64,000 nt of DNA from positions 1-64,000 of the forward strand of contig DYHH01000021.1 of NCBI GenBank assembly GCA_020724265.1, given 5' to 3'. Position numbers and translations under genes: made by a program. Below the pieces are notes generated by a model, which had not been told where the DNA came from, did no database searches, and worked only from the letters and a program-made list of their open reading frames with translations. The DNA is from Melioribacter roseus. GTDB lineage: Bacteria; Bacteroidota; Ignavibacteria; Ignavibacteriales; Melioribacteraceae. Positions 19,667 through 22,934 of this stretch are shown here, in pieces (within the stretch, counting starts at the first letter, position 1; each line of letters opens with the position of its first letter).

Positions 19667-20536
19667 TTAAATTTTATTTATTTTGAGTGAAATACCCCTT
19701 GATGTAATAATACTACCGAGTATTCCATAAAAAACACCTAAGAAAAAGATAATTAAGGAACTAATATAAATATAATTAATGAAGTTAAAATTATAATAAA
19801 ATCTTTGAATAAATTCAGATAAAAAAATTATTAAAGTGATAGAAATTACGGATGCAATCACACCAAAAATAAATCCTGTAAAATAAATAGGTATTTTTAA
19901 GGTACTTAGTTTAGCCCCGACCAATTTCATCGTGTTGTATTTTTCAAACTTATTTTGGATTTGCAATTTATTTGTTGAATAAACCAGATAAATCGCAAGA
20001 AAAACAAAAACAAATGAAAGAACAAATATAATATACTTACTTGAACTGATGAAATTAATCAATGAAATTATTGTAGAGTAATCGTATATAACTTCATCTA
20101 CAATATTATTCTTCTCTATATCATTTACAAATTGTTCAATAATATTTTGATCCACACTTTGCGATTTAAACTTTACTCTATAAGATGCAGGAAGCGGATT
20201 TGCTTCAAGTATAGATTTAAAATCTTCACCGGTTTCTTTAATAAAATTTATTTCCGCTTTTTCTTTGGAAATAAACTCAACAATATGTAAACGTTTATCT
20301 TTTCGTAATTGACTGCCAAGTGTTTGAATATCATTTGATGGTGCATCCTTAACCAAAAAAATATCTAGTTCTACCCTTTCTTTAAGCTCATCATCAATCT
20401 TATTAGAAAGTAAAACCAACACAACAGACATATTCGTAGCAAGTATTGCTATCGATAAAGAAATAATTGTAATAAACGAAGCAAGTTTTGATCGCTTAAT
20501 TGATCGAAAAGTTTCTTTTAAATAAAAGATTATCAT
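19667..20536 (-). CDS. ftsX: cell division permease-like protein FtsX
   Basis: A 289-residue inner-membrane protein with the FtsX layout: one N-terminal membrane segment (about 21-43), an extracytoplasmic domain (about 45-165) and three further segments at about 168-190, 212-238 and 258-280. With the ATPase FtsE it regulates peptidoglycan hydrolases at the division site. ftsE is not adjacent, which is common in this phylum. It lies between two small lipoprotein genes and the SLBB gene on the same strand. Confidence 0.88.
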   Translation of the reverse strand: MIIFYLKETFRSIKRSKLASFITIISLSIAILATNMSVVLVLLSNKIDDELKERVELDIFLVKDAPSNDIQTLGSQLRKDKRLHIVEFISKEKAEINFIKETGEDFKSILEANPLPASYRVKFKSQSVDQNIIEQFVNDIEKNNIVDEVIYDYSTIISLINFISSSKYIIFVLSFVFVFLAIYLVYSTNKLQIQNKFEKYNTMKLVGAKLSTLKIPIYFTGFIFGVIASVISITLIIFLSEFIQRFYYNFNFINYIYISSLIIFFLGVFYGILGSIITSRGISLKINKI

Positions 20537-20542
20537 TTACCC

Positions 20543-21040
20543 TTAGAAATTAGATTCATCCAACCAGTTAACAATCCGCCATTTACTACCGCTATCTTTC
20601 ATAAGAGAAAGATTTATTTTTCCATCTACCGAAATAACGTCAGTCGGGTTGAAAGTAATAGTTAACCCAAAACTACGAATAATATTTGTTGAATCCGATG
20701 TTATAGAAACAATTTCATTCCAGATTAAATCGAGGCGTTGTGCATTTTGAAACAAGCCATAAGTTACTCTCATTTCATCCTCTCTTCCCCAAGAAATATC
20801 AAAGCCCAAATCATAATCCCGGTAAGTAAAAGTAAAATCCTTCGTCAACAAATTTCCATAAATAGTAGTATCCTTAAAACTATATGCGTACTGAAAATTT
20901 CTAAAAAGTCCGTCAATTGTTTTCTGATCGGTTATTAATCCTTCTTCACCGGAGATAGAGTCATCCAGTGCAGGTGCAAAAGGATTTACACAACCTGATA
21001 AGAAATATAAGACAAGCAATATAAAAATTACCGATTTAAT
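20543..21040 (-). CDS. small lipoprotein with NTF2-like C-terminal region
   Basis: A secreted lipoprotein of unknown function, about 165 residues. The lipobox is FLSGC, followed by a domain whose pattern (Y-SFKDT, F-YRDYDLG, WRIVNWLDE) looks like an NTF2-type fold. No ATG, GTG or TTG gives a complete signal peptide: the first TTG (21019) leaves only ten residues up to the lipobox cysteine and no positive charge. An ATT at 21040-21038 preceded by GAGG would give a textbook signal peptide (Met-Lys-Ser, then hydrophobic residues, then the lipobox). That ATT overlaps the stop of the upstream gene, suggesting coupling. The start is an inference. Confidence 0.75.
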   Translation of the reverse strand: MKSVIFILLVLYFLSGCVNPFAPALDDSISGEEGLITDQKTIDGLFRNFQYAYSFKDTTIYGNLLTKDFTFTYRDYDLGFDISWGREDEMRVTYGLFQNAQRLDLIWNEIVSITSDSTNIIRSFGLTITFNPTDVISVDGKINLSLMKDSGSKWRIVNWLDESNF

Positions 21041-21608
21041 AAAATCTACCTCTTAACTCACTCCAGCTTGGCAGGTTCCCAATTTGAATATCCCGCCATT
21101 TTGTAATAACCCATTGATTTCTAGAATCAAGTTTAATAGTAAACTCAACATTCCCTTGATATACTGACGGTAAATCAGGATTATTAGCCGGAACATTTAG
21201 TGCATATGAATAAAAATAAATAGCGCTATCTCCTTGCGGAGTAGAAAATTCATCGGTTAGCGATAATAAAATGGTTGATTGACCAACAGCTGAAAAAACA
21301 TTATTAATATAAATTCTTTCAGCCGATAAGTCCCAATTAGACAGTGTTTGAAATGTAGCTTCTGCTCCCGAAGCCGGAAAGTAATTAAATTCAGAATTAA
21401 GAAACGCAGAATCGACAAAAGAAGCCATATAATTTTCTGAAATTTTTTCAGATAGTGAATTTCGCAAGTTATCAAATAGTAATTTCGGTGTAGTGGGCGG
21501 GACATAATTAGAGCCCGTTTTCTTCGGTTCCTCCACATTACGTGTTGTGAAAAGATCACACGAGCTTAAAACAATCACTAATAATATGATAAATATTCTA
21601 TCCTTCAT
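21036..21608 (-). CDS. small lipoprotein, unknown function
   Basis: A lipoprotein of 190 residues from the ATG at 21608: signal peptide MKDRIFIILLVIVLSSC with the lipobox cysteine at residue 17, then a Pro/Thr-rich linker and a folded region ending in QWVITKWRDIQIG. This resembles the C-terminal part of the next gene product, so the two lipoproteins may be distant paralogues. It overlaps the end of the methyltransferase gene by 11 bp and the probable start of the next lipoprotein by a few bases. Function unknown. Its position between methyltransferase and ftsX gives no strong clue. Confidence 0.8.
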   Translation of the reverse strand: MKDRIFIILLVIVLSSCDLFTTRNVEEPKKTGSNYVPPTTPKLLFDNLRNSLSEKISENYMASFVDSAFLNSEFNYFPASGAEATFQTLSNWDLSAERIYINNVFSAVGQSTILLSLTDEFSTPQGDSAIYFYSYALNVPANNPDLPSVYQGNVEFTIKLDSRNQWVITKWRDIQIGNLPSWSELRGRFY

Positions 21609-22338
21609 TTTGCCCAATTATTATTATTCGGGAAGAATTTATCTCAGAAAAATTTTCTCCTTCATAACTACCGAAGACATCGATAATTTTATAACCTGTT
21701 TTAGAAAATAATTCAAACAATATTCCCGGCGAATACAATTTAACCGATTCTGTAAAACTATGTCTTTCATTTCCCTTTGAAATATTAATTTCTTTAATAA
21801 CCCTTTGATTCTCAATTTTTCTTTTTTCTTCTATTAAATAACCATCAATTTCTTTTTGCGAATACGGGATTAGATTATCAATTAGGCATTGTTTATTGAT
21901 ATAATCAAATACAAAATACCCTTTCTTTTTAAGGAAAGTTATGGAATTATTTATAAAACTGAAATTCTCTTCGTCGGTAACAAAATAGCCGAAGCTTGTA
22001 AATACATTTAAGATTAGGTTGAATTTCATTTTCAGCTTAACCGATCGAATATCCGATCTGAAATAAATATTCTCACCTGAGATTTTACCGGCATCAGTTT
22101 TTGCAATCTTTAAGAGAGGAAGACTCAAATCAAAACCGATGACTTTGTAACCTTTTTGAAGAAGTAAATTTGAATATCTGCCTGCACCGCATGCAGCATC
22201 TAAAATCAGAAAATCATTTTTAATTGAAATTGTTCTATGAATAAGATCAAGAAGCAGTAAAGCATCATTTTGATCACGATGTTTGTATACATTCAGATAT
22301 TGTTCTGAAGAGAACCAATCTTCAAACCATTCAGACAT
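21598..22338 (-). CDS. class I SAM-dependent methyltransferase
   Basis: A 246-residue protein with the Rossmann-type methyltransferase core. Motif I (LDAACGAGRYS) is at residues 46-56, followed by the acidic loop GFDLS (about 68-72) and a later motif LILNVFTSFGYF. The substrate cannot be told from the sequence. Its ATG overlaps the recR stop by one base (TGATG), so it is probably translated from the recR transcript. Confidence 0.87.
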   Translation of the reverse strand: MSEWFEDWFSSEQYLNVYKHRDQNDALLLLDLIHRTISIKNDFLILDAACGAGRYSNLLLQKGYKVIGFDLSLPLLKIAKTDAGKISGENIYFRSDIRSVKLKMKFNLILNVFTSFGYFVTDEENFSFINNSITFLKKKGYFVFDYINKQCLIDNLIPYSQKEIDGYLIEEKRKIENQRVIKEINISKGNERHSFTESVKLYSPGILFELFSKTGYKIIDVFGSYEGENFSEINSSRIIIIGQNEG

Positions 22339-22934
22339 CAGAGATCACTTCTACCAAGTACGGCACGCCCGATTGTAGCATCATCTGCAAATTCCAAATC
22401 GCCCCCGATCGGAATTCCACGTGCGATACGGGTTACTTTTATATTGAGCGGTTTAATTAATTTAGCTAAATAAAGAGAAGTTGTATCCCCTTCGGTGTCG
22501 GGATTCAAGGCTAAAATAATTTCCTTAACTTCAGTATTTTGTAATCTACCGATTAATTCTTGAATATGCAGGTCATCAACAGAAGATCCGCTTAAAGGGG
22601 ATAATACTCCTCCAAGAACATGATATAACCCTTTATACTCGTTTGTTCGTTCGATGGCGAATATATCACTTGCTTCTTCAACAACGCATATAACAGACTT
22701 ATCTCTTTTTGTACTTTGACAAATGTCACATGTATCATCAACAGCTAGATTAAAACAAACCGAGCAGAGTTTAATTTTTTCTTTTAAGTCGGAGATTGCT
22801 TTAATTAAATTAATCACATTCTCCGGATCTGTCTTCAGTAAGTGCAGAGCGAGTCTTTGAGCAGTTTTTTTACCTATTGACGGCAGTTTGCTCAATTCAT
22901 CAATTGCTATTTGGAGTGGTTCTGCGATTTGCAA
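22338..22934 (-). CDS. recR: recombination mediator RecR
   Basis: A 198-residue DNA repair protein that acts with RecO/RecF to load RecA. It shows the N-terminal helix-hairpin-helix region (PSIGKKTAQRLA, about 18-29), the C4 zinc finger (C57, C60, C69, C72) and a Toprim domain with the acidic ALNPDTEGD segment. The start is a TTG at 22934, one base after the ebfC stop. The ebfC-recR pairing is conserved in many bacteria. Confidence 0.96.
   Translation of the reverse strand: MQIAEPLQIAIDELSKLPSIGKKTAQRLALHLLKTDPENVINLIKAISDLKEKIKLCSVCFNLAVDDTCDICQSTKRDKSVICVVEEASDIFAIERTNEYKGLYHVLGGVLSPLSGSSVDDLHIQELIGRLQNTEVKEIILALNPDTEGDTTSLYLAKLIKPLNIKVTRIARGIPIGGDLEFADDATIGRAVLGRSDL

Follow-up and report, generated by a model that had tools for sequence, protein, structure and literature searches.

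An AUU start codon predicted for a lipoprotein gene of Melioribacter roseus shares a base with the stop codon of the preceding gene and recurs across the order

Background

In the contig DYHH01000021.1 of Melioribacter roseus (assembly GCA_020724265.1), two paralogous lipoprotein genes without a Pfam family, here called A and B, lie directly upstream of an ftsX-like gene (19667-21608). The first 64,000 nucleotides of this contig, called the window below, constitute the whole stretch of DNA that was analysed. The locus raises a simple question: at which codon does translation of lipoprotein B begin? An earlier note on this DNA proposed that B starts at ATT (21040-21038), as no ATG, GTG or TTG would provide it with a full signal peptide.

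Start codons of this kind are rarely encountered. Escherichia coli pcnB begins with AUU outside infC, and this start limits its expression. To our knowledge, pcnB is neither a lipoprotein gene nor fused to a stop codon, and we know of no stop-fused infC. Documented near-cognate starts are few in the portion of the literature available to us: infC, pcnB, cvfC1, ccpN, citZ and sigR.

Results

Architecture of the junction

Read on the minus strand, the junction runs TAA (21055-53) GAG GTA GAT TTT ATT (21040-38) AAA TCG ... TCA GGT TGT (20992-90), and B translated from ATT reads (M)KSVIFILLVLYFLSGC-VNPFAP. Features of the junction are listed in Table 1, where the ATG start of lipoprotein A is our choice, the longest open reading frame opening at TTG 21617. 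The GAGG reported by the earlier note is indeed present at 21052-21049, with a spacing of 8 nt. Its statement about canonical codons holds as well: only TTG 21019 precedes the lipobox cysteine, giving MLVLYFLSGC, nine codons without any charge.

Table 1. Features of the lipoprotein A/lipoprotein B junction and its surroundings in the window
Feature	Position	Strand	Remark
Lipoprotein A, 190 aa from ATG 21608	21036..21608	-	distant paralogue of B
In-frame TAA, upstream closure of frame B	21053..21055	-	
Shine-Dalgarno AAGAGG within the final lipoprotein A codons (..ELRGRFY*), 8 nt 5' of ATT	21049..21054	-	synonymous bias in relatives
ATT, predicted AUU start codon of lipoprotein B	21038..21040	-	sole start with full signal peptide; same register in 87/123 order junctions
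TAA stop of lipoprotein A, one T common with ATT (ATTAA)	21036..21038	-	
TTG, sole canonical alternative start of B	21017..21019	-	9 codons to Cys
Lipoprotein B, 165 aa counted from ATT	20543..21040	-	lipobox Cys codon 20992-20990
ftsX-like permease gene, next after B	19667..20536	-	

Start and stop codons at the A/B junction have bases in common, with a Shine-Dalgarno (SD) sequence upstream. In this respect the junction resembles ATGA and TGATG gene pairs, in which the SD likewise lies in the upstream gene and termination-reinitiation is plausible (PMC6728339). The earlier note described the overlap with the upstream TAA correctly, and its comparison with ATGA applies only in part. In ATGA, bases 2-3 of the start are bases 1-2 of the stop, whereas in ATTAA base 3 of the start is base 1 of the stop, and consequently no NTG start is possible in the ATTAA register. 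The ATTAA overlap thus holds no canonical start codon, in contrast to the ATGA and TGATG classes; the strings "AUU" and "TTGA" are absent from the main text of the survey of overlapping pairs (PMC6728339). A TGATG overlap of the recR stop with a methyltransferase start is found in the same gene run at 22336-22340.

Conservation among relatives

Lipoprotein B was matched in 54/58 relatives, in 124/133 order genomes (completeness of at least 85%) and in 143/149 class genomes, the window's own genome being counted in each. Named records among these matches include Melioribacteraceae, Ignavibacteriaceae and Ignavibacteria (NCBI places Melioribacteraceae within Ignavibacteriales). The third same-genus relative, G003, which is 80% complete, gave no match. 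Junctions were read in 122 of the 124 order genomes (G063 and G091 left out) and in G008, G022 and G032, which fall below the completeness bar; after loci L030 and L131, with unrecognisable upstream gene, had been dropped from these 125, 123 order junctions remained. A canonical start was counted when ATG, GTG or TTG occurred 13-45 codons ahead of the lipobox Cys.

ATT with its third base on the stop of A is present at 87 of the 123 junctions (80 TAA, 7 TAG), and 67 of these 87 contain no ATG, GTG or TTG at 13-45 codons from Cys, 33 having none in the open frame at all. Of the remaining 36 junctions, a canonical codon falls within range at 29 and is missing at seven (L022, L034, L118, L147, L180, L184 and L185); ATT, ATC or ATA occurs near the latter, which in A+T-rich DNA means little by itself. 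For counting on the tree, the order loci were tallied as 67 ATT-only, 19 ATT with a canonical codon, 30 canonical and 7 near-cognate, L004 (ATT junction only 12 codons from Cys) being scored as canonical.

Some of the seven exceptional junctions deserve separate description. Frame A of L147 is broken early in the assembly, and its junction still reads GGGAGGACGTATTAAA. L034, L118 and L184 show possible ATA or ATC starts of B, in an overlap without ATT; of these three, L184 has a junction visibly rich in G+C. At L022, A ends with Tyr-TAA 129 nt ahead of the Cys of B, so the genes do not overlap, the sole canonical codons of B are a GTG 7 codons and an ATG 5 codons away from Cys, and ATT ATT AAG is placed after GGGAGA. 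Provided that the draft sequence of this locus is correct, a near-cognate start may persist without being locked in a stop codon; the alternative is an assembly fault.

ATG, which the earlier note had expected in relatives if ATT were recent, is not what replaces ATT there: ATT itself is conserved, and where another start stands in its place within the order, TTG as part of a TTGA overlap is the most frequent (12 loci). The same comparison disposes of the suspicion, prompted by the rarity of this codon as a start and by the draft state of the genome, that ATT is a sequencing or assembly error for ATG. An identical ATT in 87/123 assemblies, including same-genus loci L002 and L003 and 84 further order loci, excludes it, and ATG at this place would moreover abolish the stop of A; we regard such an error as practically negligible. 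The ATT start of B looks like an old and stable feature of the clade.

Signal peptides and control genes

Translation from ATT was evaluated at the 70 ATT-only loci (67 from the order and three from class family f13). All 70 carry K or R within residues 2-6, and their Cys is residue 15-21 (median 17), preceded by an acidic residue in three of them. With its basic n-region, hydrophobic core and lipobox Cys, B is a predicted bacterial lipoprotein (signal peptidase II).

Two other readings would do without an ATT start. According to the first, B begins at the internal TTG 21019, or at similar short canonical codons in relatives, with a very short signal or as a non-lipoprotein. TTG is a normal start codon which defines the open reading frame under the standard rule, and a canonical codon is found ahead of Cys in 36/70 ATT-only loci. 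These 36 codons are, however, at most 12 codons away from Cys, the other 34 loci have none, and the lipobox Cys is invariant across 24 aligned rows, so that we consider this reading very improbable. The second reading assumes ribosomal frameshifting at the end of A, producing an A-B fusion in which B needs no start codon. It agrees with the position of B in the next frame, with the overlap of both genes and with the lack of a canonical start in ATT-only loci. Nevertheless, the junction still encodes a complete lipoprotein signal with lipobox for B, and in some relatives the genes lie apart or ATG or TTG is used; the frameshift appears to us even a little less credible than the internal start.

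Control genes obey the same rule with canonical starts. Lipoprotein A has one in 106/106 resolved loci (its start was unresolved in 17/123 loci, in seven of them for want of an upstream stop in the stretch), as do 20 of 21 lipobox open reading frames in 400 kb of the same-genus genome G002. The 21st apparently carries a false lipobox, resembling a nucleotide-binding motif. A crude scan of the same 400 kb for other near-cognate starts returned two candidates among 320 gene-like open reading frames; one of them has a usable TTG and neither is convincing.

Synonymous codons and Shine-Dalgarno sequences

Because NAT TAA always spells ATTAA, the conservation of ATT is partly owed to A ending in Tyr/Asn-TAA, which is conserved in its own right. 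Choice between the synonymous codons for the last residue is informative in this respect: NAC ends A at 4/91 Tyr/Asn-ending loci in the ATT register, whereas 24.1 would be expected on the basis of the same genes with kinship ignored. At three of these four loci (L159, L174 and L183), B has a canonical start 15-23 codons from Cys, and in the fourth, L011, the nearest in-range canonical codon is 32 codons upstream of Cys.

A similar preference concerns the SD itself. Gly-Arg occurs in the tail of A at 48 ATT-only loci, where Gly is encoded by GGG in 34/48 and Arg by AGG in 32/48, compared with 11% and 14% elsewhere in A (kinship ignored). At order loci with a canonical start, the corresponding figures are 1/13 and 3/13, the difference from ATT-only loci giving Fisher p of 5e-5 and 0.01, respectively, again with kinship ignored. 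Judged by these sequences, the synonymous codons of A are skewed towards SD, indicating selection for it. SD runs are of similar length at ATT-only junctions and at order junctions with canonical starts (5.69 vs 5.40), which means that SD marks a ribosome start hereabouts and not ATT specifically; a tree-paired comparison of ATT with SD strength yielded just two usable pairs on supported branches.

Bacteroidetes generally lack SD use, according to PMC10783764. By a crude count, SD accompanies the first canonical codon in 88/320 gene-like open reading frames of G002. These bacteria do not employ SD as a matter of course. The 3' end of 16S was read in G002 alone, as CCTCCTTTCT: neither G000, where 16S is partial, nor 5/6 genomes searched showed the tail pattern, and 16S is absent from 6/8 genomes searched.

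Stop codon, register and origin of the overlap

The kind of start codon in B is closely associated with the kind of stop codon in A. All 12 order loci where A ends with NAT-TGA are in register 1, with TTG in the overlap, and 87/90 order loci where A ends with NAT-TAA or NAT-TAG are in register 2, with ATT. The order contains 16 TGA loci altogether, of which the other four end in different codons. ATTGA with its TTG start and ATTAA with its ATT start differ by one G, and both proteins are unchanged by the difference.

When mature B sequences were placed in a quick tree, which has several long branches, all 70 ATT-only loci fall into a single clade of 127 rows (SH-aLRT 95) composed of the order rows and four f13 loci. 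Of the 66 rows outside this clade, 63 are canonical and three have ATT together with a canonical codon under the same rule. Class rows comprise 70 loci, read from among the 123 matching class genomes that lie beyond the order; for these loci the start rule is a generous one, and A was unrecognised in 9/70. ATG, TTG or GTG stands in an xTGA overlap at 27/70 class loci, in 23 of them 14-44 codons from Cys. Probably, ATTAA arose from a TTGA overlap by loss of one G, the direction of this indel being inferred from the outgroups.

The two lipoproteins and their neighbour

Lipoproteins A and B are distant paralogues (hhalign probability 97.2, E 2.9e-11). A search against Pfam and NCBIfam placed neither above the cut-off of any family, and a profile search of PDB sequences gave weak matches only (best E 0.029). 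Structural models had pLDDT of 91.6 for A and 85 for B. The best Foldseek match of the B model is a putative ketosteroid isomerase (E 1.9e-7, TM 0.57 by query length, 0.71 by target length). The top 50 matches contain several NTF2-like entries, and B is thus predicted to adopt an NTF2-like fold. An ftsX match was obtained by tblastn at 104/109 loci, some of which represent the same genome twice; the five loci without a match include short stretches. From gene position alone, one might guess at a role of the lipoproteins beside the divisome.

Discussion

Comparison of the 123 order junctions, the SD codon bias and the signal-peptide geometry favour ATT 21040-21038 as the start of B, in agreement with the earlier note. 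From the conserved ATT, the missing alternatives, the selection for SD and the association of register with stop codon, all read in the sequences, we infer initiation at AUU, its coupling to the upstream gene, its IF3 sensitivity and the direction of the indel. In our opinion it is quite probable that the AUU start is genuine, directed by SD and probably coupled to termination of A, its weakness being either by design or a product of mutational trapping.

The following course of events can be envisaged. Initiator tRNA would begin B at AUU on ribosomes positioned by SD in the last codons of A (typically K-G-R as AAA GGG AGG), probably including ribosomes freshly released at the stop of A. As AUU would be a weak start discriminated by IF3, the output of B would be restrained and tied to A. 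A TTGA overlap would have lost one G, turning NAT TGA with start TTG into NAT TAA with start ATT. Thereafter ATT would persist, since a point mutation to NTG would destroy the stop of A; a weak start perhaps also suits B and would be retained for this reason. Canonical starts of B in 30/123 order relatives mean that the weak start is not required by every one of them.

It may also be argued that B does start at ATT, but by a frozen accident, which is locked by the stop of A and devoid of regulatory meaning, with the strong SD repairing the rate of B. This reading overlaps with the explanation given above and denies only its regulatory part. It is in accord with the register, which rules out NTG, with TTG in the overlap of all 12 NAT-TGA relatives and with the strong SD under selection. 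Against it, loss of the stop would add at most five codons to A in 20/67 order ATT-only loci, so the lock is soft, canonical starts do exist in the 30 relatives mentioned, and L022 (one draft locus) has neither an overlap nor a canonical start. We find the case for such an accident nearly balanced, with a slight inclination against it.

Extending the explanation of a genuine, SD-directed start, ATTAA could be regarded as a distinct class of coupled junctions, in which a near-cognate start is forced by the register. Born from TTGA, it would owe its order-wide retention to IF3-discriminated initiation, which would set the B:A ratio of the two paralogous lipoproteins beside ftsX and thereby link envelope output to the initiation machinery. 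This extension is tentative and, taken as a whole, we deem it rather unlikely.

The closest parallels are found in a few known systems. Near-cognate starts of infC (AUU, AUC or AUA) are kept across large distances, as is the start of B (PMC5472188, PMC1805508, PMC13009471). The infC product is itself the factor discriminating against AUU and so autoregulates, unlike the predicted surface lipoprotein B, which would have no such loop. Staphylococcus aureus cvfC1 (AUU) and ccpN (AUA) combine, like B, a conserved near-cognate start with an extended SD (PMC13009471). In poor medium, reporters with these near-cognate starts reach about 10% of what AUG gives, and the starts are conserved among staphylococci (cvfC1) and to B. 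subtilis (ccpN) (PMC13009471). In contrast to B, whose start is predicted from sequence, initiation of both was demonstrated by ribosome profiling; cvfC1 heads its operon, and the accessible part of that report mentions no stop overlap for either gene (PMC13009471). Streptomyces sigR has, like B, a non-canonical start outside infC and is repressed by IF3 via GTC, but it differs in that codon, in encoding a sigma factor and in belonging to another phylum (PMC5472188).

Conserved near-cognate starts are thus known (infC, cvfC1, ccpN), and what is new is a stop-fused, order-wide case in a lipoprotein gene. Two marks of a conserved near-cognate start are present here, namely the lack of a usable canonical start (67/87) and the same codon in relatives (87/123). 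No report on this locus or on the ATTAA class was found in the titles and abstract openings covered by a literature search short of a full review. The B junctions offer natural replicates in which AUU and UUG are one base apart, order-wide and locked in a stop codon, so that retention of a near-cognate start by selection or by mutational trapping, as well as tolerance of AUU by terminating ribosomes, become testable. They also suggest that gene finders restricted to ATG, GTG and TTG would misplace or miss such starts across the clade.

The initiation machinery of these bacteria can be judged from their own infC. The gene was matched in 55/58 relatives and, among 30 loci read, starts with ATC or ATT in 28 and with TTG in two; L203 is ambiguous, a TTG being present also two codons upstream. 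Since infC keeps near-cognate starts, these bacteria probably do discriminate against such codons, and sensitivity of B to IF3 is to be expected. In G000, infC is located elsewhere and the product of B is not IF3, which sets B apart from autoregulation of the infC type. In these infC starts (L190-L219), ATC is commoner than ATT, and most of them follow GAGAGG or AAGAGG. In genus g41 (G044 and G051), both infC and lipoprotein B start with TTG.
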